From positions 1 to 46,271 of the forward strand of contig PWHG01000071.1 of NCBI GenBank assembly GCA_003554785.1: a DNA stretch of 46,271 nt. Direction: 5' to 3'. Each line of letters starts with the position of its first letter. Position 1 is the stretch's first letter. The DNA comes from Candidatus Falkowiibacteriota bacterium. GTDB lineage: Bacteria; Patescibacteriota; Patescibacteriia; Patescibacteriales; UBA12465. Of the stretch, positions 10,539 through 43,195 are shown in pieces. The notes below the pieces were generated by a model. The model worked only from the letters and a program-made list of their open reading frames with translations, was not told where the DNA came from and searched no databases. Position numbers and translations under genes: made by a program.

Positions 10539-10544
10539 AAATTT

Positions 10545-11834: not shown

Positions 11835-11846
11835 ATATTTTTATAA

Positions 11847-12878: not shown

Positions 12879-12882
12879 ATAA

Positions 12883-24063: not shown

Positions 24064-24930
24064 TTAATTCTTTTTATATAATTCATTTAAAGCTAACTTC
24101 CAGGAACGTAGCTTTGGTCGCTTTTTATTAATCAAAATTGAAGATTTAGGGCGTTTTGCTGGACGACTAATTTCAGTAGATTTAACTGGCTTAACTTTAG
24201 GTGATAATTTAAATAATTTAAAAAGATAATTAGCGCCTTGTAACCAAGTCGCTGGACTAGCATTTGTTAAATGATATATCCCAGAATCTGGACGATCATC
24301 AATTAATTTTCTAGTGGCTTGAGCTAAATCAGGACTGTAAGTAAAACAACTCTTTTCTTCATTAACTATTTTAATCTCGCGATTATCTTTAGCTAAATTT
24401 AACATAATATCAAAAAAACTTGGCTTTGCTTCCGCACTATTGGCTTTGGGTCCAAATAATTTTGATGTTCTGATTAAATAATAATTTAAACCTTGTTTAG
24501 CTAAACTTAAAATCTTTTCTTCTCCAGCTAGCTTAGTTTGACCATAACAATTAATTGGATTTGGATGGTCATTTTCTTTAAAACCAGAAAATTCTAGATC
24601 ATCACTACTAAAGACATAGTCTGATGAATAATGAACTAAAACCGCCTCCTTAGCTAAACACCAATTAGCTAAAAACTCCACTAAATCACGATTTAAAGCT
24701 AAAGCTAATTGATATTCCTTATCAGACTTTTCACATAAATCAACATTGTTATAAGCGGCCGCGTTTATAATCATTGACGGCTGACTAGCTTCAAGAGCAG
24801 AGGCAGTGGACGAAATATCAGTCAAATCAAGATCAATTTTATCCCATGCTAATGGCTTTAGATCAGAAAAAGACTGACAAAGAAAAGTTCCTAAATTTCC
24901 ACTAGCTCCTAATATTAATATTTTTTTCAT
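24064..24930 (-). CDS. rmlD: dTDP-4-dehydrorhamnose reductase
   Basis: 288 residues, extended SDR. The cofactor loop GASGNLG is at residues 8-14, INAAAYNNVDLCE follows, the catalytic Ser region is HYSSDYVF and the Tyr-Lys pair is in YGQTKLAGE. It catalyses the last step to dTDP-L-rhamnose. rmlB and rmlC are not in the window. It starts a unit rmlD-rmlA-GT2, probably with the sigma-4/HARE gene. The predicted transcription start falls on the A of the ATG, so the mRNA would be leaderless. Confidence 0.93.
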   Translation of the reverse strand: MKKILILGASGNLGTFLCQSFSDLKPLAWDKIDLDLTDISSTASALEASQPSMIINAAAYNNVDLCEKSDKEYQLALALNRDLVEFLANWCLAKEAVLVHYSSDYVFSSDDLEFSGFKENDHPNPINCYGQTKLAGEEKILSLAKQGLNYYLIRTSKLFGPKANSAEAKPSFFDIMLNLAKDNREIKIVNEEKSCFTYSPDLAQATRKLIDDRPDSGIYHLTNASPATWLQGANYLFKLFKLSPKVKPVKSTEISRPAKRPKSSILINKKRPKLRSWKLALNELYKKN

Positions 24931-24936
24931 ATTTTT

Positions 24937-24965
24937 ATTATAACACTTAAATACAATAAAAACAA
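24937..24965 (-). promoter_or_regulatory. rmlD promoter (leaderless register)
   Basis: The minus strand reads TTGTTT (24965-24960), a 17-base spacer, then TATAAT (24942-24937) with an upstream TG (extended -10, TGTTATAAT). Exactly six bases separate the -10 from the rmlD ATG, placing +1 at 24930, the first base of the start codon. Confidence 0.75.
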
Positions 24966-24992
24966 AAAAGCTTTTTTAAAAAAAGCTTTTTT
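24964..24992 (-). terminator. Terminator after murF
   Basis: Two copies of AAAAAAGCTTTTTT, each self-complementary, together fold into a hairpin with a run of T on the minus strand. It closes the mraZ-murF cluster and abuts the rmlD -35. Confidence 0.65.
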
Positions 24993-25000
24993 AGTCTTTA

Positions 25001-26275
25001 TTAATCTTGCCACTGTTTATCTTGCCTTACTAAATATTTAGCGTCTTTTGAACTTTTTAAGATTGCTTTAGTAATTTTTTCCATTCTAGCACCTTGGCTT
25101 CCTTTAATTAAAACTACATCATCTTCATTTAGCTTTGTTTTTAAAAATTCCGTTAAAGATTGTTGGCTGGAAAATATAATTATTCTATCTTTGGCAACAC
25201 TGCTTTCTTCAAGATCATCTTTTAATTCTTTAATTATATCTCCAAATAATAAAACATAATCTATTTTTGCCTTCTTTATCGCTTTAGCAATTAAACTAAA
25301 GCCAGACTTTTTATAAGCACCAATTTCCAATATATCACCTAAAACCACATATTTTTTAGTTGAAAAATTTAATTTTTCTAAAGTTTTTACTGCCAGACAA
25401 ACCGAAGCTGGTGAAGCATTATAGCTATCATCGATTATATGAGAATTATTTATTCCTTTTAAATAATTCATTCTTCCTGGAGCTAGTGAAAAACTTTTAA
25501 GTTTTTCACCAATATCGACTAAATTCAAATTTGATTTTAAAGCTACTAAACTAGCCGCCAGTATTGCATATAGACCTGAATCATTGATAATTTTTTCAAG
25601 TTGTATGGGAAGAACTGCGCCTTGATAATCTAATTTTACATGAATACCACCAAAATAATCAGATTCCTTGTCTAAGCGATATTTTAAATCTATAAGTTTT
25701 AAATTGGCATCACTACTAAAACCAAAGCTTAAAACTTGGGTTTGAGAGACATCTTTCATAGATAAAACTAAAGGATCGTCATGGTTTAATATAACCATAC
25801 CTGAATTTTTAGTATTTTTAACTAATTTCTGCTTTTCTTCTTTAATATGCTCTAAACTAGAAAAATATTGAAAATGAGAATGACTAACTGCTGTTACCAC
25901 TGCTATATCTGGCTTTACAATTGAACATAAATAATCCATATCACCAGGCCTGTCAATACCCATTTCTAAAATCAATATTTCCGGATATTTTTGTTTGTAA
26001 ATAATAAGTCCAAAAGCAAAAAAAATAATTTTCACCCAGCCGAAAATTGATCGCCCGGGCGATATCCTACCAATTATAGTTAAAGGTAGACCGATCTCAT
26101 TATTATAATTTTTATAATTTGTGTAAACAAAAAAATAATCTTTTAGGATGTGATTAATTGCGTCTTTAGCTCCAGTTTTTCCTACCGAACCGGTAATGGC
26201 AATAACCTTAGGCTGATATCTTTTAAGTATCAACTTAGCTAAAATCTTTAATGTTTTTTGTAATATATTTTTCAT
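25001..26275 (-). CDS. murF: MurF-type Mur ligase lacking the N-terminal UDP-MurNAc domain
   Basis: 424 residues. The central ATPase domain begins almost at once: the P-loop TGSVGKTGAKD is at about residues 28-38, where MurF normally has about 100 residues before it. NYNNEIGLPLTI, LEMGIDRPGDM and AVSHSHFQYF follow, then the C-terminal ligase domain with DDSYNASPAS and VVLGDILEIG. The motifs fit MurF (D-Ala-D-Ala addition to the UDP-MurNAc-tripeptide) better than MurE or MurC. The missing first domain normally holds the UDP, so substrate binding must differ. A hydrophobic stretch (about 76-94, FGWVKIIFFAFGLIIY) may sit on the membrane. Last gene of the division/wall cluster, one base after ftsI. 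Confidence 0.85.
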   Translation of the reverse strand: MKNILQKTLKILAKLILKRYQPKVIAITGSVGKTGAKDAINHILKDYFFVYTNYKNYNNEIGLPLTIIGRISPGRSIFGWVKIIFFAFGLIIYKQKYPEILILEMGIDRPGDMDYLCSIVKPDIAVVTAVSHSHFQYFSSLEHIKEEKQKLVKNTKNSGMVILNHDDPLVLSMKDVSQTQVLSFGFSSDANLKLIDLKYRLDKESDYFGGIHVKLDYQGAVLPIQLEKIINDSGLYAILAASLVALKSNLNLVDIGEKLKSFSLAPGRMNYLKGINNSHIIDDSYNASPASVCLAVKTLEKLNFSTKKYVVLGDILEIGAYKKSGFSLIAKAIKKAKIDYVLLFGDIIKELKDDLEESSVAKDRIIIFSSQQSLTEFLKTKLNEDDVVLIKGSQGARMEKITKAILKSSKDAKYLVRQDKQWQD

Positions 26276-26276
26276 T

Positions 26277-28358
26277 TTAGTAACTTTTTGGGATTTGATA
26301 ATAATTTAATAAAAACTCAGCAATATCTCGCCATAAAGGAGCAGCTGAAGCAGCTGCAAATCTTACACCTTTTGGTTTATCTATTTTAACTAACATAACA
26401 AAGGCTGGATCATCTATGGGAGCTACACCAGTAAATACATGAATATGTTGATCTTCTAGGTAACCACCAGGTCCTGGGATTTGCGCTGTTCCGGTTTTTC
26501 CACCAATATAATAACCTGGGATTTGCGCTTCACTGGCATGCCCTTTACTAACTACATTAGCTAACATAGCTAAACTAGTATTGGCTGCTCTTTGAGAAAT
26601 CACTTGTCTAACTGTCTGAGGTGATGTTTTATGAGAAAAACCATCGGGTTTAACAATTTCTGAGACAATGTAGGGTTTCATTAAAACTCCATTATTAGCT
26701 AATACTTGATAGGACATAAGCATTTGCAGAGGTGTAAGAGCAATTCCTTGACCATAGGAAGCAGTGGCAGCATCAATTTCTCTAATTCTTCTACCAACTA
26801 AATTATCAATATTACCAGCACTTTCAGTGCCTAATTCAATACCAGTTCTTTCACCAAAACCGAAATCTTGTAAATACAGAGCAAAAACTTCAGCTCCAGT
26901 TTGGCGCATAGCAAAAATTGCTCCCGTATTTAAAGATTTATTCAAAACTGTTTTCATGTCAACTATACCATATGGTCCGTGGGTACTATAATCAGAATTT
27001 CTAATTGGCCTTGGCCAACCACTAATTGAAATCTTTCCTTTATCATTATAACTAGTATCAGGAGTAATTTTCTCCTGATCTAGAGCAATTGCCATGGTAA
27101 TAGTTTTAAAAGTCGAGCCAGGCTCAAACTGATATGAGGTGGCTGGATTATTAAAAACTGAAATATCTTCTACTTGACGAAAATTATTAGGATCAAAACT
27201 TGGTTCAGAACACATAGATATTATTTTCCCGGTATCTGGCTCTACAATAATTACTGAGCCACCCTCAGCTTGGTGGTGTTTTACGCTTTCTTTTAATTTT
27301 TGGCAAACATAATGCTGAATACTACGATTAACCGTTAAAACTAGATCACTGCCTGACTCAGGAGCTACATATTCTCGATCATTTACAATTATTGTTCTTC
27401 CTGAACCTCTTTCAGTTTGCAGGTATCCGGAAGAGCCGGAAAGCTCAGTTTCAAAAAATTCTTCTAAACCGTAGCGACCAACATAATCATGTCCATCCAT
27501 TCCTACAAAACCCAATAGATGTGAAGCTAAGCTTGGTTCTGGATAAAAGCGATGTGATGTCATATGAAAGGCAACTCCCTCAATACTCATTACTGCACCA
27601 GTTTCTTTGTCATAAACTCTCTCAAGTCGTCTCTCTAAATCTTTAGCCTCGTAAGTTTTTTCTTCATCACTGAGCAGAAAAGCATATAAAGAAAGTAAAG
27701 TGTCGTCATCAACTTTTCTCATAAAAGGTTCATAAGGATCACCTGGTTTATCTAAAATTAATAAATAATCATCAATTATTTCTTGTTTTCTTTCTAAAAC
27801 TTCGTTTTCAATCTGCAGTTCTCGTAGTTCATAAGCTTCGGGACTGTTGTATTGCGCTTCCATTTGTCTTCTGGCTTCGGCTTTTTTTTCTTGCTTTTCT
27901 TCATCACTTAAATCATCATTATCTTCAATTAAAGCTAAACGATTATTTAATCTTTGTTTAAAAGGTAGTGAAGCTTCTTTTTTGACTTCTTCTACAAGTT
28001 CTTCTTCATCAAAAAATTCATAAAATTTCTTAGCTAAAGCTTCAGGGTCACTTATATTTTTTGGCACAAGATAGATAAATGCAAAATCTTTGTTAGTGGC
28101 AGCTAAAAATAGATTTTGCTGACCACCAAAACTTTCTCTTAAATATATCTTTCCCCTATCAGCTTGCAATTGATTGTATACTTGATGTTGACTATTGGCT
28201 AAACCAGCGTATAAATCATGATTTATAACTTGAAGAGAGAAAAGTCTAATAATTAATAATGCAAATAATAAAAAAATAACCGTTCCCGCAACTCGTAAAC
28301 GATTATTACTAGCTATATACTTCTCCTTTTTAGTTTTTTTATTATAATCTCGCCACAT
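26277..28358 (-). CDS. ftsI: Class B penicillin-binding protein, FtsI/PBP2-like
   Basis: 693 residues from ATG 28358; a TTG three codons upstream is a less likely start. One N-terminal transmembrane helix (FLLFALLIIRLFSLQV), then the dimerisation region with ADRGKIYLRE. Between about residues 100 and 230 lies a long, highly charged helical insertion. The transpeptidase domain carries the active-site STFK (GSTFKTI), SLN (KSLNTGA) and KTGTAQ motifs. It cross-links septal peptidoglycan outside the membrane; there is no glycosyltransferase domain. It lies 32 bases after ftsL and 1 base before murF. Confidence 0.93.
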   Translation of the reverse strand: MWRDYNKKTKKEKYIASNNRLRVAGTVIFLLFALLIIRLFSLQVINHDLYAGLANSQHQVYNQLQADRGKIYLRESFGGQQNLFLAATNKDFAFIYLVPKNISDPEALAKKFYEFFDEEELVEEVKKEASLPFKQRLNNRLALIEDNDDLSDEEKQEKKAEARRQMEAQYNSPEAYELRELQIENEVLERKQEIIDDYLLILDKPGDPYEPFMRKVDDDTLLSLYAFLLSDEEKTYEAKDLERRLERVYDKETGAVMSIEGVAFHMTSHRFYPEPSLASHLLGFVGMDGHDYVGRYGLEEFFETELSGSSGYLQTERGSGRTIIVNDREYVAPESGSDLVLTVNRSIQHYVCQKLKESVKHHQAEGGSVIIVEPDTGKIISMCSEPSFDPNNFRQVEDISVFNNPATSYQFEPGSTFKTITMAIALDQEKITPDTSYNDKGKISISGWPRPIRNSDYSTHGPYGIVDMKTVLNKSLNTGAIFAMRQTGAEVFALYLQDFGFGERTGIELGTESAGNIDNLVGRRIREIDAATASYGQGIALTPLQMLMSYQVLANNGVLMKPYIVSEIVKPDGFSHKTSPQTVRQVISQRAANTSLAMLANVVSKGHASEAQIPGYYIGGKTGTAQIPGPGGYLEDQHIHVFTGVAPIDDPAFVMLVKIDKPKGVRFAAASAAPLWRDIAEFLLNYYQIPKSY

Positions 28359-28390
28359 AAAAAACAAGCATTATTAAATTATCAATCAAT

Positions 28391-28720
28391 TTAGCGACGA
28401 GCCATACTAGATTCCTTAGCACTTAAATGAGTTACATTTTTAACACTCACTAGCTGCAATTCATCAATTTTATATTTAACTTCATTATATGACTTCATCG
28501 CCATTAAATTAGATTCTAAACTTCGATTTTCCTCAGACAGTAAACTTAATTCTCGATTTAGATCTCTAATTACAAAACCTTTTCCAGCCATATCATTGCA
28601 AATGGCTAAATTAGTTCCTCCTATTAAAATAAGTAGAGAAATTAAAACAAAATTAATTTTTTTCCAAGAAATTAAAGTGTATTTCTTTTTACTGATTTTT
28701 TTTGATTTTAAGGCGGTCAT
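28391..28720 (-). CDS. ftsL: FtsL-like small bitopic division protein
   Basis: 109 residues. A basic N-terminus (KSKKISKKK), one transmembrane helix (about 27-43, FVLISLLILIGGTNLAI), then a coiled-coil stretch (LNRELSLLSEENRSLESNL). This is the FtsL/DivIC layout. Sequence conservation in this family is weak, so the call rests mainly on topology and on the position between rsmH and ftsI, where ftsL always lies in the division/wall cluster. It would link the FtsQ-FtsB subcomplex to the septal synthase. Confidence 0.75.
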   Translation of the reverse strand: MTALKSKKISKKKYTLISWKKINFVLISLLILIGGTNLAICNDMAGKGFVIRDLNRELSLLSEENRSLESNLMAMKSYNEVKYKIDELQLVSVKNVTHLSAKESSMARR

Positions 28721-28734
28721 ATTATTTTTAATTA

Positions 28735-29679
28735 TTAATAAATTTTTTCTGCAACTCGTAATTTTGCGCTACGAGACCTAGGATTGTCTTTTTTTTCTTC
28801 ATCAGTGGCTACTAATGGTTTTTTTGTTAATATTTTTAATTTCGGATCCTGACATGTACAAATTAAATCACTGGGCAAACATCTACAATTTCGTGAATTT
28901 TCACGAAAAAAATTTTTCACTATTCTATCTTCACCACTATGAAATGATATGGCTACAATTCTCCCTCCACTTTTAATTAAATCCAAACTTTTAGCTAAGG
29001 CCAAGCGCAAATTATTTAATTCATCATTGGTAGCAATTCTTAAAGCTTGAAAATATACAGTAGCGGGATGAATTCTTTTATTTTTAAAGTTTTTAACAGG
29101 TAATGAACTTTCTATAATCTCCAGTAAGTGTTTGACTCGGGCGATTCTTTTCTTCCTTCTGTAGAAAACAATCGCCCGAGAGACACGATATGCATGGGGA
29201 TCTTCGCCGAAATCCTTGAATATTTTAACTAAATCCTTTAATGAATAATAATTTACAATTTCTATCGTTTTATCAGCCAATTCCTTAGAAAAAGCCATAT
29301 TCAGTGGAGCATCCTTTTTAAATGAAAAACCTCTATCTTCATCTTCTAGCTGGTCAGATGATAAACCTAAGTCAAAAACAATTCCTGAACAAGTATCTTT
29401 TTCAATTCCCTCTTTTTCTGCGATCTCATCTAAATTAGCAAAATTATTTAATACAGTTTTTATACTTAAGTCCTTTTTATCTTTAATTAAATGATCAAAT
29501 TTTTTTTTAGCTTTTACGTCCCATTCAATTGAAAATACTTTTCCTTTTTTTCCAACTAACTTGGCTATTTCTTGACTATAATTACCAGCTCCTAGGGTGC
29601 AATCAATAAAAACTTGTCCGGATTTGGGGTCTAAAAAGTCCAAAACTTCTTTTAACATCACTGGCTTGTGAATTGACAT
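28735..29679 (-). CDS. rsmH: 16S rRNA (cytosine1402-N4)-methyltransferase RsmH
   Basis: 314 residues, full length. HKPVMLKEVLDFL at the N-terminus, the SAM loop DCTLGAGNYSQEI, VFDLGLSSDQLEDEDRGFSF, HPATVYFQALRIATNDEL and SFHSGEDRIVKNFFR are RsmH signatures. It methylates C1402 of 16S rRNA in the decoding site. It lies 10 bases after mraZ and 14 before ftsL, its canonical position. Confidence 0.97.
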   Translation of the reverse strand: MSIHKPVMLKEVLDFLDPKSGQVFIDCTLGAGNYSQEIAKLVGKKGKVFSIEWDVKAKKKFDHLIKDKKDLSIKTVLNNFANLDEIAEKEGIEKDTCSGIVFDLGLSSDQLEDEDRGFSFKKDAPLNMAFSKELADKTIEIVNYYSLKDLVKIFKDFGEDPHAYRVSRAIVFYRRKKRIARVKHLLEIIESSLPVKNFKNKRIHPATVYFQALRIATNDELNNLRLALAKSLDLIKSGGRIVAISFHSGEDRIVKNFFRENSRNCRCLPSDLICTCQDPKLKILTKKPLVATDEEKKDNPRSRSAKLRVAEKIY

Positions 29680-29689
29680 ATATAAATTA

Positions 29690-30121
29690 TTAGATACCTA
29701 ATTCACCTAAAGCCTCGGCAATATCATTACTATTTCTCTCTGCCCTTCCTTTATATTTCTCCCAAGCTTCCTGATCCCAAATTTCTAAATGATTATATAA
29801 ACCAGCCACGACAATTTTTTTCTCTAAACCGGAAAATTTTCTAAGATACTCTGGTAAGGTAATTCTTCCCTGATTGTCAAATTCAACATCCATAGCTCCA
29901 GCTAACATATGTCGAGCAAAAGCTCTAGCTTTAGCTTGACTAATTGGCAGTGAGGCAAACTTTTCAGCAATTTTTTTAAACTGTTCTTTGGAATACAAAA
30001 AAAGACAATCATCTAGTCCTTTAGTGACGACTGCCCCCTTTTTTAAAACACTTCGAAACTTAGCGGGTATCGCTAAGCGTCCTTTGCTATCTAAGATGTG
30101 ATTGTATTCGCCTATAAACAT
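29690..30121 (-). CDS. mraZ: Transcriptional regulator MraZ
   Basis: 143 residues with two SpoVT/AbrB-like halves. The first is F.GEY.H.LDSKGRLAIPAKFR and the second VEFDNQGRITLPEYLRKF; the DSKGR and DNQGR pairs are the DNA-contact positions. MraZ forms a ring and represses its own division/wall operon. Three G-rich pentamers at exact 10-base spacing (30142-30166) lie between the promoter and the ATG, matching the repeat layout of MraZ boxes. It is the first gene of mraZ-rsmH-ftsL-ftsI-murF. Confidence 0.97.
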   Translation of the reverse strand: MFIGEYNHILDSKGRLAIPAKFRSVLKKGAVVTKGLDDCLFLYSKEQFKKIAEKFASLPISQAKARAFARHMLAGAMDVEFDNQGRITLPEYLRKFSGLEKKIVVAGLYNHLEIWDQEAWEKYKGRAERNSNDIAEALGELGI

Positions 30122-30141
30122 AAATTTATATTTATGAAATT

Positions 30142-30166
30142 CCCCTTAATACCCCACTTTTCACCT
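30142..30166 (-). promoter_or_regulatory. Candidate MraZ boxes
   Basis: On the minus strand AGGTG, TGGGG and AGGGG start exactly ten bases apart in the mraZ leader. Known MraZ operators are tandem TGGGN-type pentamers with 5-base spacers, the same period. Their position downstream of the promoter fits autorepression. Confidence 0.6.
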
Positions 30167-30176
30167 TTATAATTTA

Positions 30177-30205
30177 ATTATACACCACTTATGCACTACC
30201 GTCAA
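30177..30205 (-). promoter_or_regulatory. mraZ promoter
   Basis: The minus strand reads TTGACG (30205-30200), a 17-base spacer, then TATAAT (30182-30177). The predicted start is near 30170, with a leader of about 50 bases that carries the candidate MraZ boxes. Confidence 0.8.
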
Positions 30206-30243
30206 CCCTAAATATTGCTTTAAAATAAGCGAAAAAATAAAGA

Positions 30244-30273
30244 AAAAGACTACTTATCCACAAGTAGTCTTTT
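30244..30273 (-). terminator. Intrinsic terminator after tsaB
   Basis: Perfect 12-bp stem (aaaagactactt/aagtagtctttt) around the loop atccac, with T-rich tracts on both sides. It closes the methyltransferase-to-tsaB operon just upstream of the mraZ promoter. Confidence 0.85.
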
Positions 30274-30308
30274 ATTTTTTATATTTTTGAAAATTATTTA
30301 TCCACAGC

Positions 30309-30680
30309 TCATTTTTTCTTTCCTATACTAGCTTCTTTTTCATAATTAGCTTTTACTAACTTTTTGCTTGAGAATTTTTTATTTTTTTGTTCTTTGGTCT
30401 CTGCACTATTTACCGGAATCTGCAGAGAATAAGCAAGAGCATTGGCAGTTAAAACACCAATTCTTAGACCAGTAAAAGTTCCTCCATAATTGTAAACTCT
30501 AATCTCTTTAATATCTTTTAATTTAACATTGGAGCTTTTTAAAAGTTTATCAATACTAAGCAGTAATTTTTCAGCTTGTTTTTTTTTAGCTTTAATTTGT
30601 TTTTTTAAAATCAGCTTATCATCTTTTTTCAGTGACACTTCCAAACTATCAACTAAAGATGTATTTATATATAAAATCAT
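30309..30680 (-). CDS. tsaB: TsaB-like protein, N-terminal half only
   Basis: 123 residues; TsaB is usually about 220-230. It begins [16 protein letters not shown] (an ASKHA-fold strand, normally LAIDTS) and contains YGGTFTGLRIGVLTANALAY, the counterpart of the GPGSFTGLRIG signature. The fold stops soon after residue 95 and a lysine-rich tail follows. TsaB is the scaffold that binds TsaD during t6A37 tRNA modification. The first subdomain, which contains the TsaD-contacting helices, is what remains. The start overlaps the dus stop (ATGA) and a good terminator follows, so this is a settled short form rather than a fresh frameshift, though truncation cannot be excluded. Confidence 0.75.
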   Translation of the reverse strand: MILYINTSLVDSLEVSLKKDDKLILKKQIKAKKKQAEKLLLSIDKLLKSSNVKLKDIKEIRVYNYGGTFTGLRIGVLTANALAYSLQIPVNSAETKEQKNKKFSSKKLVKANYEKEASIGKKK

Positions 30681-33033: not shown

Positions 33034-33040
33034 ATTATTT

Positions 33041-33526: not shown

Positions 33527-33537
33527 AAAAAATAAAT

Positions 33538-34146: not shown

Positions 34147-34165
34147 AAATTTATAAATTAATTTT

Positions 34166-34795
34166 TTATTTAGCTTTTATAACCCCAGCAAATTGCAAAT
34201 ATCTAGTATCAGATAAAAATCCAAAAAAAATAATATTTATAATACTAAACTTCCAGAAATTAAGAGGGTTAATACCTTTTATTTGCAAAACTTCAAAGTT
34301 TAAATTATTAAAGGTTTCAATTAAGCTTTTTTTAGTAAAAAAACGCAAATGGGTTCTATCAAGAATTCCTTCATCTTCATAGTGCCACTGTTTATCAATT
34401 ATTAGTTTTTTTAAATTAAATAAATATCTTACATTAGGCACTGAAAAAACTATTACTCCATTTTTATTTAATTTGCTTTTAAGTTTTTTGAGAAATAAAA
34501 AAGGGTCAACTAAATGTTCAAGTATATCGTTTAAGACAATGCAATCAAAATAATCATCCTCCAGGAAGTCAAGGTGATAATTTACATCACCAATTAATAC
34601 TTTATCTAATTTTTCTCTGGCAACTTTAGCGGCCTTTTCATCTTTTTCTATACCCCAAACTTGTGATTTAAGTTTTTCTTTTAAAACTGCAGAAAAATTT
34701 CCCTGACCACAGCCAATATCTAAAATTCTTTGAGAATTTTTAGGTATAAAGTCAAACATTTCTAAGCGATTTTGTTTATAATATTTATTATCCAT
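34166..34795 (-). CDS. Class I SAM-dependent methyltransferase
   Basis: 209 residues. ILDIGCGQGNFS is the SAM-binding motif I, VWGIEKDEKA the acidic motif II, and CIVLNDILEHLVDP motif IV. RTHLRFFTKKSL matches the methyltransferase group often found in polysaccharide or lipid biosynthesis (methionine biosynthesis MetW/UbiG-like). The acceptor is unknown. It is the first gene of the operon down to tsaB and is divergent from rnhB. Its -10 element places +1 on the ATG itself. Confidence 0.85.
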   Translation of the reverse strand: MDNKYYKQNRLEMFDFIPKNSQRILDIGCGQGNFSAVLKEKLKSQVWGIEKDEKAAKVAREKLDKVLIGDVNYHLDFLEDDYFDCIVLNDILEHLVDPFLFLKKLKSKLNKNGVIVFSVPNVRYLFNLKKLIIDKQWHYEDEGILDRTHLRFFTKKSLIETFNNLNFEVLQIKGINPLNFWKFSIINIIFFGFLSDTRYLQFAGVIKAK

Positions 34796-34801
34796 AACTT
34801 A

Positions 34802-34830
34802 ATAATGCCACAATAAAATACATTTGTAAA
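34802..34830 (-). promoter_or_regulatory. Methyltransferase promoter (leaderless register)
   Basis: The minus strand reads TTTACA (34830-34825), a 17-base spacer, then CATTAT (34807-34802), preceded by TG (extended -10). Six bases separate it from the ATG, so +1 would be 34795. It overlaps the divergent rnhB promoter region. Confidence 0.55.
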
Positions 34831-34838
34831 TTTATTTA

Positions 34839-34847
34839 TGCTATAAT
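34839..34847 (+). promoter_or_regulatory. rnhB extended -10 (leaderless register)
   Basis: TGCTATAAT, a perfect extended -10, ends six bases before the rnhB ATG, so +1 would be 34854, the A of the start codon. No -35 is clear at 17 bases. Confidence 0.65.
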
Positions 34848-34853
34848 TAAAAT

Positions 34854-35495
34854 ATGCTTAATTTGGAAAATGAAAAAAAATTTTTTGCTTTAAATTACAA
34901 AACCGTCGCTGGTGTTGATGAGGCTGGACGCGGACCTCTAGCTGGGCCAGTAGTAGCTGCATGTGTTTTAATAGATGATAAATTCTCTATTGATAGTGAT
35001 GAGTTAAAAATTATAAATGATTCAAAAAAACTAAGTCCTAAAAAAAGACAAGAATTGTTTAAAACTATTAAACAAGAAGCTTTAGCGGTTGAAATTGGAG
35101 TGGTTAACAACCAAATGATTGATAAGATCAATATATTGCAAGCTAGTTTTTTAGCGATGACAAAGGCTATAAATTCATTAAAAAAAGCCCCTCACTACCT
35201 ACTTGTTGATGGGCATTTTAAAATCCCTAAAATTAATGTTAACCAAAGCGCAATTATAAAGGGTGACTCATCAGTTTTCTCTATCGCTGCTGCTTCTATA
35301 ATTGCTAAAGTCAGTCGAGATTGGCTGATGTGTCAATACGATAAAAAATATCCTATATATAACTTTGAAAAACATAAAGGCTACGGCACCAAAGAACATT
35401 TAAAAAAAATAAAGGAATTTGGTCCCTGCCCTATTCACCGCCTTAGCTTTGCTCCTTTTAAAATTAAAAAACCCTTTCGTTTAGAAAGGGTTTAA
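34854..35495 (+). CDS. rnhB: Ribonuclease HII
   Basis: 213 residues. VAGVDEAGRGPLAGPVVAA holds the catalytic Asp-Glu pair and the GR(G/K) 2'-OH-sensing loop. NDSKKLSPKKR, LLVDGHFKIP and AAASIIAKVSRDW supply the other acidic residues (Asp of VDG, and Asp of SRDW). It cleaves RNA of RNA-DNA hybrids and single ribonucleotides in DNA. One of only three plus-strand genes here, divergent from the methyltransferase and convergent with the HAD gene. Its last codons form one strand of a terminator hairpin for the opposite gene. Confidence 0.96.
   Translation: MLNLENEKKFFALNYKTVAGVDEAGRGPLAGPVVAACVLIDDKFSIDSDELKIINDSKKLSPKKRQELFKTIKQEALAVEIGVVNNQMIDKINILQASFLAMTKAINSLKKAPHYLLVDGHFKIPKINVNQSAIIKGDSSVFSIAAASIIAKVSRDWLMCQYDKKYPIYNFEKHKGYGTKEHLKKIKEFGPCPIHRLSFAPFKIKKPFRLERV
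35469..35493 (-). terminator. Terminator of the HAD gene inside the end of rnhB
   Basis: Perfect 10-bp stem (aaaccctttc/gaaagggttt) around a 5-base loop. On the minus strand it is followed by TTTTTTAATTTT, a good U-tract, whereas the plus-strand tract is weak. It lies within the last codons of rnhB and starts a few bases after the stop of the convergent HAD gene. Confidence 0.75.
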
Positions 35496-35497
35496 AT

Positions 35498-36154: not shown

Positions 36155-36197
36155 GGTTGATGTTTTAAATGAACAACTGATTTGATTTTAGATAAAT

Positions 36198-36225
36198 ACT
36201 ATAGCGTAAATAGAGAATTTGTAAA
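36198..36225 (-). promoter_or_regulatory. Candidate promoter of the HAD gene
   Basis: The minus strand reads TTTACA (36225-36220), a 16-base spacer, then TATAGT (36203-36198). The predicted leader is about 37 bases. Confidence 0.5.
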
Positions 36226-36227
36226 GT

Positions 36228-36253
36228 AAAAAACAAGCAATCGCTTGTTTTTT
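36228..36253 (-). terminator. Intrinsic terminator after hisS
   Basis: Perfect 11-bp stem (aaaaaacaagc/gcttgtttttt) around a 4-base loop, with strong runs of A and T. It closes the single-gene hisS unit. Confidence 0.85.
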
Positions 36254-36266
36254 ATTGTAAAATATT

Positions 36267-37550
36267 TTATTTTAGAATGAATTCTTTTTCTTCACCGCTT
36301 TTCATATCTTTTAGTCTATAGACATTTTTTGCTTTTTCCTTATCTCCAAAAATAATAATTTTATTGTATTTTTGTTTATTGGCTAAATCAAGAGCCTTTT
36401 TTAATTTTTGTGGCTCAAGAGAAAAATAAACATTATTACCATCCCGCCTTAAACTAGCAGCTAATTTTTGTGATTCAAGTAAACTCGCAGAATCCAGTAA
36501 TGGAAAATAAATAAAATTATTTTCATACAAATTATTGGGAATTAAATTCCAAGATTCTAGAAATAATTTTGTAGTCTCATCACCGGGAGCAAAACCTACA
36601 GCCGGAAAACTAGTTGCACCAAAAATTTGCGCTAAACCGTTGTAGCGTCCACCACCAAACATAGCTCGCATATTTTTTGGATTATTATCAAATACTTCAA
36701 ATATTAAGCCATCATAATAATCAAAACCACGAACCAGTGAAGGGTCAAAAACAATTTCTTGACTATAACCTAAATCTTTTAAACTTTTAATCACAAAATC
36801 AACCTCGTCTTTAGCTTCTTTTAATTTTTTTGATGAAGAAATTAGATCTTCAATAACTTTTTTATCATTAGACATTAAAGCTTCAATATCTTTTAACTTA
36901 TCGGCTTTTACATTCAAAGTTTTTAAGCGAGAATAAAATTCATCTTTTGATAATTTATTGTACTTATCCAAAATCCGAAAAAGTTCTTGATTATTTTTAT
37001 CTTCAATTCCAAAAAAAGGCAACATTTCTTCAAGTAATCGGCGATTATTAATTCTTAGGGTAAAGGAATTTTTAGGGGCTTTAAACTCATTCATGATATC
37101 CAGTGATAATTGCAAAATTTCCAAATCTGCCACTTCAGACGAGCTACCAAAAACATCACAATTTAATTGCCAAAATTCCCTATTTCTACCTCTTTGTGGT
37201 CTCTCGTTGCGCATAAAATTGGCAATTGAAAAGAGTTTAAGAGGTTTTGGGCTGGCTGCATACATTTTACTAACCATGCGAGTAACTGATGGGGTCATTT
37301 CTGGACGAATACACAATTCTCTTTTACTAAAATCATAAAAGGTCACCAACTCCTGACCACCAACATCTTCTCCTGACTTAGCTTTATAAAGATCAGCTAA
37401 TTCAACTAAAGGTGTTAAATACTCTCTATAGCCATAACGAATACAAACTTGGCGCCAAGTGTTAAATATATATTGACGAAGTTTAAATTCCTCTGGCAAC
37501 CAGTCATTGGTTCCCTTTGGTGGTTGATTGGATAATATTTTTTTAGCCAT
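36267..37550 (-). CDS. hisS: Histidyl-tRNA synthetase
   Basis: 427 residues from ATG 37550; an in-frame ATG at 37568 adds only MLLFKY, lies upstream of the predicted transcription start and was rejected. PPKGTNDWLPEE opens the class II core, CIRPEMTPSVTRM and FMRNERPQRGRNREFWQLN are motif 2, the HisA motif is RGFDYYDGLIFE, and AVGFAPGDET is motif 3. A C-terminal anticodon-binding domain ends the protein. It charges tRNA-His. It is a single-gene unit divergent from the response regulator. Confidence 0.96.
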   Translation of the reverse strand: MAKKILSNQPPKGTNDWLPEEFKLRQYIFNTWRQVCIRYGYREYLTPLVELADLYKAKSGEDVGGQELVTFYDFSKRELCIRPEMTPSVTRMVSKMYAASPKPLKLFSIANFMRNERPQRGRNREFWQLNCDVFGSSSEVADLEILQLSLDIMNEFKAPKNSFTLRINNRRLLEEMLPFFGIEDKNNQELFRILDKYNKLSKDEFYSRLKTLNVKADKLKDIEALMSNDKKVIEDLISSSKKLKEAKDEVDFVIKSLKDLGYSQEIVFDPSLVRGFDYYDGLIFEVFDNNPKNMRAMFGGGRYNGLAQIFGATSFPAVGFAPGDETTKLFLESWNLIPNNLYENNFIYFPLLDSASLLESQKLAASLRRDGNNVYFSLEPQKLKKALDLANKQKYNKIIIFGDKEKAKNVYRLKDMKSGEEKEFILK

Positions 37551-37558
37551 ATATTTAA

Positions 37559-37567
37559 ATAATAGCA
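37559..37567 (-). promoter_or_regulatory. hisS extended -10 (near-leaderless)
   Basis: The minus strand reads TGCTATTAT, an extended -10, ending eight bases before the hisS ATG; the predicted leader is about two bases. A TTGCTT lies 18 bases upstream as a possible -35. Confidence 0.5.
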
Positions 37568-37637
37568 AGAAAATAGTCTAAAAAGCAAATTTAATTTATT
37601 TTTATCAGCTTTTTAATTATTTGTTATTAAATATTAG

Positions 37638-37654
37638 TATAATTATTTTATAAT
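37638..37654 (+). promoter_or_regulatory. Candidate -10 elements of the response regulator gene
   Basis: Two TATAAT hexamers at 37638-37643 and 37649-37654 precede the ATG at 37672, predicting leaders of about 22 and 11 bases. No convincing -35 is at the right distance from either. Confidence 0.4.
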
Positions 37655-37671
37655 AAATAATAAAAAAAAAT

Positions 37672-38346
37672 ATGCGTATTTTAATTATCGAAGATGATTT
37701 AGAAATTAGCGCCTTTTTAAAAACTGCCCTTAAATCCCAACTATTTGTGGTTGACTGTGCCCATGATGGTGAAAAAGGAGCTTTTTTAGCTCGAACAAAC
37801 CATTATGACTTAATTGTCCTAGACTGTAATTTACCCAAACTAAGCGGAAGTGAGGTTATAAAAGAAATTAGACAAGACAAAAAAACTCCAATATTAGTTC
37901 TAACTGTTAAAGCTTCACTAGAAGACAAACAAGAAATGTTTGAAATGGAGGCTGATGATTATTTAGTCAAACCATTTGTATTTAAAGAATTTATTTTAAG
38001 AGTTAACGCCCTTTTGAGGCGACCAAGAGAAATTGAAGAAAAAAATTTAAAATTTGCTGATATTAATCTAAATTCAAAAACCAAGGAAGTAAAAAGAAAT
38101 AATAAGAAAATCATTTTAACTAACAAAGAATACAATTTATTAGAATTCTTTCTAAAAAGACCCAAGCAAATTCTTTCTCGAAGTGAAATAATGGAGCATG
38201 TCTGGGACATGAATGCTGACCCTTTCTCTAACTCAATTGAAGCCCATTTAATGAATTTGCGAAAAAAATTAAACAAAATTAAGAAAAAAAATTATATCCA
38301 TACCTTAAATGGTCGTGGATATAAACTAGACTTTAGTAAATATTAA
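37672..38346 (+). CDS. OmpR-family response regulator (orphan)
   Basis: 224 residues. The receiver domain shows the acidic pair IEDD (about 7-10), the phosphorylated Asp in LDCNLPKLSG (about 51), the switch Thr in LTVKA and the conserved Lys in VKPF. The winged-helix domain (about 130-222) has LTNKEYNLLEFFLKRP and NSIEAHLMNLRKKLNK, then TLNGRGYKL. A sensor kinase should phosphorylate it, but none is in the window, so its partner is elsewhere. Its target genes are unknown. Its stop overlaps the convergent small membrane protein gene by 14 bases and no terminator hairpin is seen. Confidence 0.92.
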   Translation: MRILIIEDDLEISAFLKTALKSQLFVVDCAHDGEKGAFLARTNHYDLIVLDCNLPKLSGSEVIKEIRQDKKTPILVLTVKASLEDKQEMFEMEADDYLVKPFVFKEFILRVNALLRRPREIEEKNLKFADINLNSKTKEVKRNNKKIILTNKEYNLLEFFLKRPKQILSRSEIMEHVWDMNADPFSNSIEAHLMNLRKKLNKIKKKNYIHTLNGRGYKLDFSKY

Positions 38347-38818
38347 AATAACTTAAAAGAGAAAAAATAAAAAGAATAATTGAAATAATAAAAAAGAAAA
38401 TATTGGATTTCTCTTTGTATTTTAAAAAGAAGAAAGCTAAATAAAGAAAATAAAAAGCCATAAACAAAGACAGGAAAAAACTTAGATTAATAGGAAAATT
38501 AATTGCTTTAAGTGAAAAACTAAAATGAATAAGACTCAAAAAACCTAAACTAATATCTCTTAAGTTATACTTATCTTTGAGTGAAAAATTTGATTTAAAT
38601 AAAAATTGAAAATATAAATATAGCAGTAATACAAGCAATGGTCCAAAAAATGCCACTAAAAAACTAGGGAGTATTAAATTAAGTGAAATAAAATATATAT
38701 TTTCCGGAAAGGATAAATAAAATGGCAAAGCAGTCACTAAGAGCAAAATGGTTATAGAAAAAGCAAACCATTCTCGCTTAAAGAAATTTTTAAAAAATTG
38801 GTTATTTCTACTTTCCAT
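38333..38818 (-). CDS. Small polytopic membrane protein of unknown function
   Basis: 161 residues, very hydrophobic, with about five predicted membrane segments (for example FSITILLLVTALPFYL, LPSFLVAFFGPLLVLLLYLY and IFFFIISIILFIFSLL). No catalytic or binding motif was recognised. It overlaps the start-proximal end of the acetyl-CoA synthetase gene by 11 bases and so is translated in the same unit; its stop overlaps the convergent response regulator gene. Coding is supported by the tight overlap and the strongly hydrophobic pattern. Confidence 0.55.
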   Translation of the reverse strand: MESRNNQFFKNFFKREWFAFSITILLLVTALPFYLSFPENIYFISLNLILPSFLVAFFGPLLVLLLYLYFQFLFKSNFSLKDKYNLRDISLGFLSLIHFSFSLKAINFPINLSFFLSLFMAFYFLYLAFFFLKYKEKSNIFFFIISIILFIFSLLSYFNIY

Positions 38819-40910
38819 AATTAATTAAAATACGTGCATCTAGGGCTTTACAGCCTTTACCTTTTTTAAACAAGGCAATTGGATTAATATCAATTTCTTT
38901 AATATCATAGAAATCATGCATTAAATTACCAACTTTCAACAAACAATCAGCTAAAGCTTCTTTGTCATAAGCTTCTTTTCCACGAATACCATCTAATATT
39001 TTAACTGTCTTTAAAGAATTTATCATCTCATAAGCTGTCGCTTTGCTAAAGGGCTCAACTGCAAAAGCTTTATCTTGCAAAACTTCAACATAAATTCCTC
39101 CCAGCCCCACCATAATCATTGGACCAAGAAGTGGATCTCTAACGGCTCCAATTATCATCTCTAAATTATCAGTCTTTATCATCTCAGTTAGCAAAACTCC
39201 TGATATTTCTGCATCTGGTCTATTGTTTTTTACATCTTTGATTAAATTATTGTAACTTTTACTTAAATCTTTTTTATCTATATCTAATTTTACTCCCCCG
39301 ACTTCTGATTTATGTAAAATATCGCCGGAGACAATTTTAAGTACTAATTTACTAGGAAATTTTTTCATTTCCTTGTTTAGCCCAACGGCGCTCTTAGCTA
39401 ACTGATTTTTTACTACTTTTATATTATAAGCTGATAAGACTTTAAAAGCTTGATCTTCGCTCAGTGCTTCCAATTCTTGAAGCTTTGCATTTTCTAAAAT
39501 ATTTTGTACCAATTTTGTGTTTACTTTATTTATGGTTTCTGATTTTATTTTTATTTTTTTCCTGTTTTTTAGCCAAGTAGAAAAAGCAATCAATGAATTA
39601 GTAGCAGTTTCTGGATATGCGTAACAGGCAATATTTTTTTGGCGCAGGAGTTCTCTACTCTTTTTAGTTAATTTATGACCCATAAAAACCGCTGCGATCT
39701 TTTTATTTGATTTTTTTAAATCAACAACTGTTTGAGCAGTTTTTTCAACTTCAGACATTGATTGTGGAGTGAAAATTACTAAAATTGAATCAACTTTTTT
39801 GTCATTTATTAATTTATCAAATACTAACTTGTATCGATCAGCACTGGCATCACCTAATATGTCAATAGGGTTAGCTAAACTTGCACTAAACGGCAACTCC
39901 TGTGAAAGTTCCTTTAAGTTATTAGATGACAAAATGGCTAGAGGTAGGCTAGAATTTTTTAAACCATCAACAGCTAAAACACCGGGACCACCAGCATTGC
40001 TAACTATGGCAAGTTTACTAAAATTTTCAAAATTATTATTTTTTAAAATTTGCAAATAAGCAAAAATATCAGAAATTTTCTCTGCTTGTATGACATTTGC
40101 TTGTTTAAATAGAGCTTTGTAAGCATTGTTATCGCCAGCTAAGGCGCCAGTATGAGAAGCACTAGCACCAGAACCTTCCTCAGAACTACCTCCCTTCAAT
40201 ACAATTAAAGGTTTATTTTTATCTGATAGCTTTTTAGCAACTTTTATAAAATCAACTGAACTACTTAATTGTTCAGTGTAGAGAGCAATTATATCTGTTT
40301 GTTTGTCATCGGCTAGATAGTTTAATAAATCAACCTCTTCTACACTAGTTTTGTTGCCAATGCTAATAAATTTAGAAAAGCCTAAATTATAATGCTTTGC
40401 TAAATCAATCATAGCTGTACATAGAGCTCCACTTTGTGAGATTAAAGCAATATTACCAACTGATAAATCAGCGCTAGCAAAGCTAGCATTTAAATTATTG
40501 GCTGGATTAATAACTCCTAAACAATTAGGACCAATCAAACTTATATCTTTTTGATAGCAAATATCTTTTATTTCTTCCTCTAAAGCTACATTACCAACTT
40601 CCTTAAAGCCAGCTGAAACTACAATAGCGGCCTTTATGTTTAGTTTAGCTCCTTGTTTTAAAATGTTGGCTACCTTCTCAGCTGGGATAGCAATAATCAT
40701 TAGATCTACATTTTCTTTTATTTCATCTAAATTAGAGTAACATTTAAGGCCCATTAGTCGATTAGCCTTGGGATTAACAGGATAAATTTTGCCAGAAAAA
40801 CCATCGTTTATTAAATTCTTTAAAATATCACTTCCGACTCTATTTTTTTTAGTTGAAGCTCCCACAACCGCGATTGATTTGGGATTAAAAATTTTTGAAA
40901 AATTTTTCAT
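38808..40910 (-). CDS. acdA: Acetate-CoA ligase (ADP-forming), fused alpha-beta
   Basis: 700 residues, both subunits in one chain. The alpha part has a CoA-binding Rossmann domain (SIAVVGASTKKNRVG), LIGPNCLGVINP, and the phosphorylated His in SASHTGALAGD (about residue 257). The beta part, from about 460, is an ATP-grasp domain with LVLKIVSGDILHKSEVGGV and LGGIYVEVLQD. It converts acetyl-CoA, ADP and phosphate to acetate, CoA and ATP, the usual acetate-forming ATP source in many anaerobic archaea and candidate-phyla bacteria. Other acyl-CoAs are possible. It overlaps the UMPH-1-like gene (ATGA) and the small membrane protein gene. Confidence 0.92.
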   Translation of the reverse strand: MKNFSKIFNPKSIAVVGASTKKNRVGSDILKNLINDGFSGKIYPVNPKANRLMGLKCYSNLDEIKENVDLMIIAIPAEKVANILKQGAKLNIKAAIVVSAGFKEVGNVALEEEIKDICYQKDISLIGPNCLGVINPANNLNASFASADLSVGNIALISQSGALCTAMIDLAKHYNLGFSKFISIGNKTSVEEVDLLNYLADDKQTDIIALYTEQLSSSVDFIKVAKKLSDKNKPLIVLKGGSSEEGSGASASHTGALAGDNNAYKALFKQANVIQAEKISDIFAYLQILKNNNFENFSKLAIVSNAGGPGVLAVDGLKNSSLPLAILSSNNLKELSQELPFSASLANPIDILGDASADRYKLVFDKLINDKKVDSILVIFTPQSMSEVEKTAQTVVDLKKSNKKIAAVFMGHKLTKKSRELLRQKNIACYAYPETATNSLIAFSTWLKNRKKIKIKSETINKVNTKLVQNILENAKLQELEALSEDQAFKVLSAYNIKVVKNQLAKSAVGLNKEMKKFPSKLVLKIVSGDILHKSEVGGVKLDIDKKDLSKSYNNLIKDVKNNRPDAEISGVLLTEMIKTDNLEMIIGAVRDPLLGPMIMVGLGGIYVEVLQDKAFAVEPFSKATAYEMINSLKTVKILDGIRGKEAYDKEALADCLLKVGNLMHDFYDIKEIDINPIALFKKGKGCKALDARILINYGK

Positions 40911-41764
40911 AATATAGATTTTAATAATTGATTGACAAAATAAAAACTAGCATCACCAATAATAACTATATCAAATTCTTGACAATAATGCTTTAGATGA
41001 CTTCTGTCATCTTCATTTAAAAATCCAATTTTTAAAACCTCATCATGAGCCATACCATTAGCCATTTTTCCATCACCTAAGCTATCGCCGAGTAAAATAA
41101 CATTTCTTCTTTTTTTAACTTTTTCATAAAAACTAAAGTTTTTTAAAATAGCCTCGTCTTTATTGTAAGGATGAATAATTGGCTTTTCAACAGCTAACAA
41201 ACCTCCTTTTTCATCCCAAAGAAAATTATTAGCCACAATATAAGTATTATTATAAAATAAAGTTCTTTTTTTTAAAAAAATCTCAATACTTTCTCTTCCC
41301 AAACCTCCGGCAGAAAAAATTAAGAGTGGTACAGACTTTTTATTTAATCGTTCAAAAAACTCTTGCCCACCAGGTCGCAGATGAAAATCTGACTCCTTCA
41401 TTGCTTTTTTTACTAAATCTTTTGTAAGTCCAAATTTAATAAGGATAGAAAAATGCTTTTTATACCATTCAAGCATTTTTTCTTTTTTAAAACTCAAAGG
41501 TATTTTAGGATTAATCTCTATTTTATGATAAAAATTAAAAAGACTTTTAGCTTCTTTTTTATAATCTTTATGTAGATAGTTCTTTTCTCTTAGTAGGCCA
41601 ATAATTGAAGGTACTCTTTTACCGTCAACAAAACATTTAGTAATCGTGCGATCAAAATCAGAAATTACTTGCAGGTTTTTAGCTCCTGCTTTTTTAAAAA
41701 TCTTTTTTTGCTTATCAAATTTTTCTGGATCGACAATTACTACCTTACCTTTTTTCATGTTCAT
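40907..41764 (-). CDS. Pyrimidine 5'-nucleotidase-like HAD protein (UMPH-1 family)
   Basis: 285 residues. ISDFDRTIT (Asp36, Asp38) is HAD motif I, then VDGKRVPS, FNFYHKIEINP, LRPGGQEFF, FSAGGLG (motif II), IHPYNKDEAIL (motif III Lys) and LLGDSLGDGKMANG (motif IV), then KIGFLNED. These follow the eukaryotic cytosolic 5'-nucleotidase III (NT5C3/UMPH-1) order closely, which is unusual for a bacterium. Members dephosphorylate CMP and UMP (or 7-methyl-GMP). A nucleotide-salvage role is inferred. The start could be ATG 41764 or 41758. It is first of a three-gene unit with acdA and the small membrane protein. Confidence 0.85.
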   Translation of the reverse strand: MNMKKGKVVIVDPEKFDKQKKIFKKAGAKNLQVISDFDRTITKCFVDGKRVPSIIGLLREKNYLHKDYKKEAKSLFNFYHKIEINPKIPLSFKKEKMLEWYKKHFSILIKFGLTKDLVKKAMKESDFHLRPGGQEFFERLNKKSVPLLIFSAGGLGRESIEIFLKKRTLFYNNTYIVANNFLWDEKGGLLAVEKPIIHPYNKDEAILKNFSFYEKVKKRRNVILLGDSLGDGKMANGMAHDEVLKIGFLNEDDRSHLKHYCQEFDIVIIGDASFYFVNQLLKSIL

Positions 41765-41780
41765 AGTTAAATATTTAAAT

Positions 41781-41828
41781 AAAACCCTAAAACTTTAATC
41801 ATGAATATGATTAAAAAATCAGGGTTTT
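41781..41828 (-). terminator. Terminator after the His/Glu-rich small gene
   Basis: Outer arms aaaaccct/agggtttt enclose an inner 9-bp stem (tttaatcat/atgattaaa) with a GAAT loop. It separates the small acidic gene from the UMPH-1-like gene. Confidence 0.6.
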
Positions 41829-41845
41829 AAGTGATTTAAAGTTAA

Positions 41846-42109
41846 TTATTGTCTAAACTGTTCACCACCTTCTTCTTCACCGTGGTGTTTGTGTTCATCT
41901 TCACCTTCTTCTGAGTGATCTTTTTCTTCATCATGATGATGCTCAGGTTTAGGTTCATGATGACTTGACTCTTCTTGATTAAATTGTGAATCAGGAGCTA
42001 ACTGATCAGTAGTTTCTTCTTCTTGATTCTCCGGATTTGGGTTGTTAGTCTCATCTGATTTTTTTTCTTCAGATTTTTTACCAAATAGGTTTTTTAGAAA
42101 ACTCATCAT
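41846..42109 (-). CDS. Small acidic His/Glu-rich protein
   Basis: 87 residues. After MMSFLKNLFGKK, an amphipathic start that might touch a membrane, the chain is low-complexity: Glu, Asp, Asn and Gln with clusters of His (SSHHEPKPEHHHDEE and DEHKHHGEEE). Such tracts can bind Zn, Ni, Cu or Co. No folded domain is visible. It has its own terminator and a TATAAT (42127-42132) 17 bases before its ATG. Family unknown; a metal-buffer role is only a guess from composition. Confidence 0.6.
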   Translation of the reverse strand: MMSFLKNLFGKKSEEKKSDETNNPNPENQEEETTDQLAPDSQFNQEESSHHEPKPEHHHDEEKDHSEEGEDEHKHHGEEEGGEQFRQ

Positions 42110-42126
42110 AGTTTTTTTCTTAATTT

Positions 42127-42132
42127 ATTATA
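42127..42132 (-). promoter_or_regulatory. Candidate -10 of the His/Glu-rich gene
   Basis: TATAAT on the minus strand, 17 bases before the ATG; predicted leader about 11 bases. The -35 region is poor. Confidence 0.4.
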
Positions 42133-42200
42133 ACTAACAATACTATAGCAGAATTATTTTAAAATTGAAAGCCTTAGCTTATTTTTTTGACTAATATTAA

Positions 42201-43067
42201 TTAATTTTTAAAATATTTCTTTGCTCTTAAAGCCACTAATTTCTCAAATCCAGAAAAACTATGGTCAGCTCCTTTGATTATCTCTGTTTTAATCCTTCTT
42301 GAGTCCAAGTCCTTGCTGAACCAATCAGCAATATGCTCAGCTGGGCGATCTAGATACTTATCTTCATCCCCTAGCAGTACATAAATTGGTATTTTTACTT
42401 TTCTTAAAATCTTTGCCCTTTTTGATTCTTGGCTGTAGCAAAAAATTTCCTCTAAACTGTTTTGACTATATAAACTTAAAAATCTTTGTGCATCTATATA
42501 AATAGGCCAAATATTAAGTGGTAGCAACTCATCTCCCTTTTTATTTTCAACCTGTTTTTTAGAAAATTTATGAGCTTTTTCAAATTGATACTTGCTAGAA
42601 AAATTTAAAACCCCAGCTAAATCACTAATTGGAGATAGCAAAACAACTGCTTTTACCTTTTTATCAGGTTTTTTAGATAAATAGTAAATTGACTTTTGAC
42701 AGCCAGTTGAGTGACCAACAAGAATTATTTTTTTAGGCTTTAACTTTTTCACCCACTGAACTGCTCCACCTATGTCATCTAAACTGTCAGTAAATTTTTC
42801 ATGAGCACTGCCAATGGTTTTAGATTTATACTTCCCTTTTTCTTTAACTTGGCTAAATCTTGATATAATTTCATTTCCACGATTATTAAAAGCAAAAACA
42901 GCCGAGTTCTTCCCAGCTAGTTTTTGATAAAGCTCAGCTTTTCTAAAAACAGAACTACCCAGTCCATGTATAAAAATATATATTGTTTCCGGATTTTTTT
43001 TGCCAATATAAAAGCCAAACAATTCTAATTTCTTAGGTGTTAAAAATTTTACTAGTTCAAATTTCAT
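42201..43067 (-). CDS. Alpha/beta-hydrolase family protein
   Basis: 288 residues. IFIHGLGSSVF is the oxyanion-side HG motif, LVGHSTGCQ the nucleophile elbow with Ser, LLGDEDKYLD the acid (Asp) and GADHSFSG the catalytic His. A helical lid region lies between about 150 and 215. It is a soluble hydrolase, possibly an esterase or lipase-like enzyme; the substrate is unknown. A TG-extended -10 (43074-43082) places +1 on its ATG, so it is probably a leaderless single-gene unit, divergent from the plus-strand gene at 43196. Confidence 0.88.
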   Translation of the reverse strand: MKFELVKFLTPKKLELFGFYIGKKNPETIYIFIHGLGSSVFRKAELYQKLAGKNSAVFAFNNRGNEIISRFSQVKEKGKYKSKTIGSAHEKFTDSLDDIGGAVQWVKKLKPKKIILVGHSTGCQKSIYYLSKKPDKKVKAVVLLSPISDLAGVLNFSSKYQFEKAHKFSKKQVENKKGDELLPLNIWPIYIDAQRFLSLYSQNSLEEIFCYSQESKRAKILRKVKIPIYVLLGDEDKYLDRPAEHIADWFSKDLDSRRIKTEIIKGADHSFSGFEKLVALRAKKYFKN

Positions 43068-43073
43068 ATTTTA

Positions 43074-43082
43074 ATCTTAACA
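43074..43082 (-). promoter_or_regulatory. Hydrolase extended -10 (leaderless register)
   Basis: The minus strand reads TGTTAAGAT, ending six bases before the ATG; +1 would be 43067. TTTAAA at 43102-43097 is a possible -35 with 17-base spacing. Confidence 0.5.
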
Positions 43083-43137: not shown

Positions 43138-43182
43138 TAATCGAAGTACTTTAAAACAAAAAAACAATAAAAATCAAAAAAC

Positions 43183-43189
43183 AGGAGGG
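43183..43189 (+). promoter_or_regulatory. Strong Shine-Dalgarno that decides the start
   Basis: AGGAGGG is the only full-strength Shine-Dalgarno noticed in the window. It abuts an ATG at 43190 (no spacer) and lies six bases before a second in-frame ATG at 43196, which has the optimal distance and is therefore the preferred start. Confidence 0.85.
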
Positions 43190-43195
43190 ATGAAA

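Follow-up and report, generated by a model that had tools for sequence, protein, structure and literature searches.

When a -10 hexamer lies at positions -12 to -7 relative to an ATG, established promoter anatomy leaves a discriminator of six bases and makes the A of this ATG the first transcribed base. Such an arrangement precedes several genes in the stretch of 46,271 nt that was analyzed here (the window), and it raises the question whether these genes are transcribed into leaderless mRNAs, how common such messages would be, and how their translation would be initiated. The window is contig 45 of a draft genome of 0.91 Mb that is 82% complete. The best match of its RnhB protein among named public genomes was found in Candidatus Falkowbacteria (66%), a lineage within the Patescibacteria group.

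Extended -10 elements in front of start codons

Direct reading of the window verified every coordinate given in the initial annotation for the -10 hexamers of rmlD, a methyltransferase gene, rnhB, and an alpha/beta hydrolase gene, all of which end six bases before the ATG (Table 1). The -35-like hexamers TTGTTT and TTTACA, each 17 bases upstream, and the slightly larger distances at hisS and at the gene starting at 45540 were also read as described. In all four cases, TG was found one base ahead of the hexamer, resulting in an extended -10 element, which had previously been marked for only two of them. The TG matters because the hexamers of the methyltransferase and hydrolase genes, taken alone, agree with TATAAT at only four of six positions, a degree of similarity that readily occurs by chance in AT-rich DNA. 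The genes for RnhB and the methyltransferase share a divergent region of 58 bases (34796-34853) that contains both predicted promoters, and the -35 element of the methyltransferase gene lies close to the -10 element of rnhB.

Table 1. Positions of start codons and predicted promoter elements in the window
Feature	Sequence	Position	Strand	Remarks
rmlD start codon	ATG	24928-24930	-	Predicted +1; direct reading, relatives compared
rmlD extended -10	TGT TATAAT, TGTTATAAT	24937-24945	-	Hexamer 24937-24942, six bases to ATG
rmlD possible -35	TTGTTT	24960-24965	-	17-base spacer; weak, since gap-6 genes show no enrichment of -35 boxes
Methyltransferase start codon	ATG	34793-34795	-	Direct reading
Methyltransferase extended -10	TGG CATTAT, TGGCATTAT	34802-34810	-	Hexamer 34802-34807, 4/6 matches, six bases to ATG
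Methyltransferase -35	TTTACA	34825-34830	-	5/6 matches; 17-base spacer
rnhB extended -10	TGC TATAAT, TGCTATAAT	34839-34847	+	Six bases to ATG; kept in relatives
rnhB start codon	ATG	34854-34856	+	Predicted +1; N-terminus conserved among relatives
Alpha/beta hydrolase start codon	ATG	43065-43067	-	Direct reading
Hydrolase putative extended -10	TGT TAAGAT, TGTTAAGAT	43074-43082	-	Hexamer 43074-43079, 4/6 matches, six bases to ATG
hisS extended -10	TGC TATTAT, TGCTATTAT	37559-37567	-	Eight bases to ATG; two-base leader
Extended -10 of gene starting at 45540	TGC TAAAAT, TGCTAAAAT	45548-45556	-	Seven bases to ATG; one-base leader

The run of four cases had been judged unlikely to arise by chance. 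For the hexamers alone, this did not hold: hexamers with at least four of six matches at a gap of six bases occurred at 4 of the 15 unit heads of the window, which is a chance count (P 0.36). When TGn was additionally demanded, the same 4 of 15 heads yielded a P of about 1e-6, a value that is post hoc. Outside the window, the combination was present at 7 of 232 heads, compared with about 1.25 expected.

Genome-wide occurrence of the six-base register

Genes were called with our own hexamer-based caller, and masked (N), short, or foreign-GC contigs were excluded. The resulting 579 genes comprised 247 unit heads that start with ATG and are divergent or separated by more than 60 bases from the gene upstream, 232 operon-internal genes that also start with ATG (gap of at most 25 bases), and the rest.

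A sharp peak of -10 motifs six bases before the start codons, missing in shuffled sequences, had been predicted, and it was found genome-wide. Hexamers with at least five of six matches were present at gap 6 in 32 of the 247 heads, versus 11.5 at neighbouring gaps (P 5e-7), and scoring with a matrix yielded 25 heads, whereas 300 dinucleotide shuffles had 7.9 +/- 2.7 and never more than 15. Extended -10 elements at gap 6 were found at 11 heads versus 1.3 (P 2e-7), and 7 of the 11 are situated outside the window. The operon-internal genes showed no gap-6 peak, and 0 of 232 had an extended -10 element at this distance. TGn accompanied 7 of the 26 strict gap-6 hexamers but only 3.4% of positions, and because of this enrichment we regard the gap-6 hexamers as promoters and not as AT noise. 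Enrichment of -35 boxes was not observed at the gap-6 genes of this genome. In a pooled sample of the family the gap-6 peak was weaker (extended -10 elements 3 versus 0.75, P 0.04).

The count of loose hexamers in the window would by itself be compatible with a register that arose by chance in AT-rich intergenic DNA and was picked by eye. However, the peak stands out against shuffles, neighbouring gaps, and operon-internal genes, TGn is enriched, and the arrangement is conserved at rnhB and rmlD (see below). A chance origin is thus extremely unlikely, and we rejected it.

The choice of the transcription start after a -10 element varies by 1-3 bases. Therefore, we also considered that the promoters are real, but that transcription starts a few bases upstream or downstream of the A, so that the messages would have short leaders (1-5 bases) or truncated starts. 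The gaps of 6, 7, 8, and 9 bases seen in relatives would agree with this flexibility. In contrast, the peak is located exactly at 6, hexamers with at least five of six matches were at background level at gap 7 (9 versus 11.5), and in all 26 strict gap-6 cases the A follows a T at -1, which makes a good initiator. We regard starts off the A as unlikely.

The positions and the enrichment of the motifs were observed directly, and we infer from them where transcription starts and that the resulting messages are translated without a leader. Candidates with gaps of 6-7 bases were found at 41 heads, of which a sizeable part represents background. After background subtraction, we estimate that 25-30 of the 247 heads, or about 10%, would be leaderless. 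A further 156 heads had a promoter-like site solely at 10-59 bases, with a broad hump near 20-40. Leaderless starts are a real but minor class in this genome, and the initial description of leaderless initiation as common was too strong, because the leaderless heads form a minority.

Conservation in related genomes

The register of rnhB was compared in 29 sequences from the family and the order. A -10 element at a gap of 6-9 bases was found in 22 of them (14 at gap 6, 13 with TGn), while 11% would be expected from shuffles; as the relatives share descent, these counts are not independent trials. When the sequences were aligned on the -10 element, the T-G and TATAAT columns had conservation values of 0.68-1.0, and the flanks mostly 0.32-0.55. 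Within the discriminator, one position, an A, reached 0.86. The -10 element is the sole strongly conserved upstream block, and some relatives do not have a nearby -10 element.

For rmlD, a -10 element at a gap of 5-9 bases was present in 19 of 29 readable sequences, in 9 of them at gap 6. It was found before the ATG in genera in which rmlD heads a unit, but usually not where the gene follows another gene. For the hydrolase gene, the six-base register was not kept in 13 relatives, several of which have a TATAAT 22-30 bases upstream instead. The methyltransferase gene has no orthologues in the family, only remote paralogues.

The prediction that transcription begins at the A of the ATG in all four units thus fared differently. 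It is well founded for rnhB and rmlD, for which leaderless or almost leaderless messages are very probable, judging from conservation across genera, but it is weak for the hydrolase and methyltransferase genes. It may be that only rnhB and rmlD, with their canonical hexamers, are leaderless, and that the other two genes are transcribed from other, leadered promoters. The upstream TATAAT motifs of the hydrolase relatives would fit, as would the fact that CATTAT and TAAGAT match the consensus at just four of six positions; however, both genes have TGn, and the methyltransferase gene also has TTTACA at a 17-base spacer. We consider this restriction a serious possibility that falls somewhat short of an even chance, and it is compatible with our main explanation.

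Start codon context and Shine-Dalgarno motifs

Shine-Dalgarno (SD) tetramers ahead of start codons were at or below background in this genome, in the family, and in the loci analyzed for the class. For the class and the phylum, start contexts were drawn from small loci, not from whole genomes. In the ribosomal-protein loci of 29 genomes of the class, SD motifs were found in 11% of cases versus 20% in the control. Nevertheless, the 3' end of the 16S rRNA reads GAATCACCTCCTTTCT past an insertion, and the anti-SD is intact. This genome and its class within the Patescibacteria have almost no SD motifs, although the 16S rRNA keeps the anti-SD.

The insertion in the 16S rRNA gene comprises about 490 bases near the 3' end (about 2769-3255 of contig C35) and is intron-like. 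The 23S rRNA match spans 4474 bases (9047-13520 of stretch L004), and therefore the 23S rRNA has intron-like insertions as well.

The initial annotation had missed this wider setting, including that a T at -1 marks operon and promoter starts alike. In this genome, T precedes 81% of the start ATGs and 83% of the operon-internal ones, compared with 34% of internal in-frame and 23% of out-of-frame ATGs; two ways of choosing the starts gave the same result. The fraction was 74% in the family and 82% in the ribosomal-protein loci of the 29 class genomes (83% at a GC content of at least 0.42). The rest of the phylum was mixed (T at -1 55%, SD 38%), and other phyla had T at -1 in 30% and SD motifs in 59%. 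T at -1 tends to trade off with SD motifs (Spearman -0.51, P 1e-4, class and phylum sets; -0.36, P 0.07, phylum set alone).

T at -1 of the transcription start is common at sigma-70 promoters, and so the T could be a leftover of promoters or of mutational bias that is not read in translation. However, promoterless operon-internal genes show it just as strongly, internal and out-of-frame ATGs lack it, and it persists in the relatives with the higher GC content. We rejected the promoter by-product because operon-internal genes carry the T, too, and consider an origin from either source very unlikely.

Within the genes of this genome, UAUG is hardly avoided (observed/expected 0.90-0.96). Therefore, U at -1 alone cannot specify a start, and other features must also mark starts, probably a lack of structure.

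The one clear SD case in the window (43176-43198) belongs to a small orphan gene at 43190, where AGGAGG is followed by ATGAAAATG. A second ATG at 43196 has a normal SD spacing. The gene had no Pfam match and is possibly foreign.

The contigs C12 (62 kb, GC 0.51), C9, C84, and C85 have a GC content much above the rest of the draft genome and are probably contamination. In C12, C84, and C85, each tested singly, just 0-30% of starts had a T at -1. Start context may be useful as a binning signal.

The initiator tRNA

Initiation at chloroplast petA involves an extended codon-anticodon interaction, in which U at -1 pairs with A37 of the initiator tRNA. The initiator tRNA gene of the present genome (complement of 7059-7132, contig C39) has an A1 x A72 mismatch and the anticodon loop CCCATAA, and thus A37 is present in this one gene of one genome. 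Matching tRNAs were 96-99% identical in three of four family relatives searched and 92% identical in the fourth. As at petA, U directly precedes AUG at most starts and A37 is available. In the chloroplast the effect concerns a single gene, whereas the U at -1 seen here is a rule that about 80% of genes follow throughout the class. Absence of SD motifs and T at -1 are observations; the pair between U at -1 and A37 (U-AUG) may form, and we would give it slightly less than an even chance.

The tRNA has two further peculiarities: position 33 is a C instead of the near-universal U33, and A29-U41 replaces the first of the three G-C pairs.

Discussion

Taken as a whole, the sequence comparisons make it quite probable that a minority of units has a -10 element placed for leaderless mRNA in an organism with an SD-independent initiation system. 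A sigma-70-type, often extended (TGn) -10 element would drive about 10% of the unit heads, with rnhB and rmlD as the best cases. The six-base discriminator would end at the ATG, and RNA polymerase would begin transcription with its A; a gap of 6 would yield a leaderless mRNA, and gaps of 7-9 leaders of 1-3 bases. The ribosome would accept leaderless mRNAs because the whole initiation system is SD-independent. What would mark leadered and operon-internal starts is an A-rich sequence together with a U that is almost obligatory at -1 and that may make an extra pair with A37. Most likely, SD-free starting would be helped by unstructured A-rich leaders together with this U.

TA-led leaderless genes have been described as lacking an SD motif and carrying TANNNT some 10-12 bases ahead of the start more often than dinucleotide-shuffled sequences do, and they are most frequent in Actinobacteria and Deinococcus-Thermus (Zheng et al. 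2011, PMC3160421). The genes described here are alike in that a -10-like TANNNT occurs near the start, at about -12 to -7, above shuffles and without SD motifs. The register is found at unit heads and not at operon-internal genes, and it is kept between relatives for rnhB and rmlD, but not for the hydrolase gene. They differ in that many have an extended -10 element and that leadered genes also lack SD motifs. The ORF-adjacent -10 motif of Deinococcus-Thermus, in which a fixed spacing drives leaderless mRNA and the -35 element is optional (PMC12340547, 2025), has the same design, but is found at about 30% of ORFs, whereas in the present genome about 10% of the unit heads have it.

SD-less initiation is also known from Bacteroidetes, e.g. 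Prevotella (PMC3155529), and the anti-SD is reported to be sequestered there by bS21 (Jha et al. 2021, cited in PMC9723584). As in Bacteroidetes, the anti-SD is kept in the 16S rRNA and SD motifs are missing from the mRNAs, a likeness that concerns the SD and anti-SD sequences alone; in contrast, U at -1 is the dominant signal here.

In a literature search that covered few subscription papers, we found no report on leaderless genes or on SD and anti-SD in Patescibacteria/CPR, and no description of a class-wide rule for U at -1. Leaderless starts as such are already known from other bacteria, and this bacterium is a new case. The U-AUG rule that holds across the class seems to be a novel form of SD-independent initiation, with a mechanism that we infer. 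A more far-reaching and rather doubtful idea is that the class has swapped the SD code for a one-base extended start codon, U-AUG, which would be read by the initiator tRNA or cut by an RNase to yield leaderless messages; the anti-SD would then be vestigial, and leaderless promoters would be one outlet.

For start codon choice in uncultured, ribosome-reduced bacteria of candidate phyla, U at -1 in about 80% of genes would amount to a simple code, which would help gene-start calling across many genomes. A class that lacks SD sites and retains the anti-SD offers a naturally occurring setting in which to study initiation on SD-free and leaderless messages.
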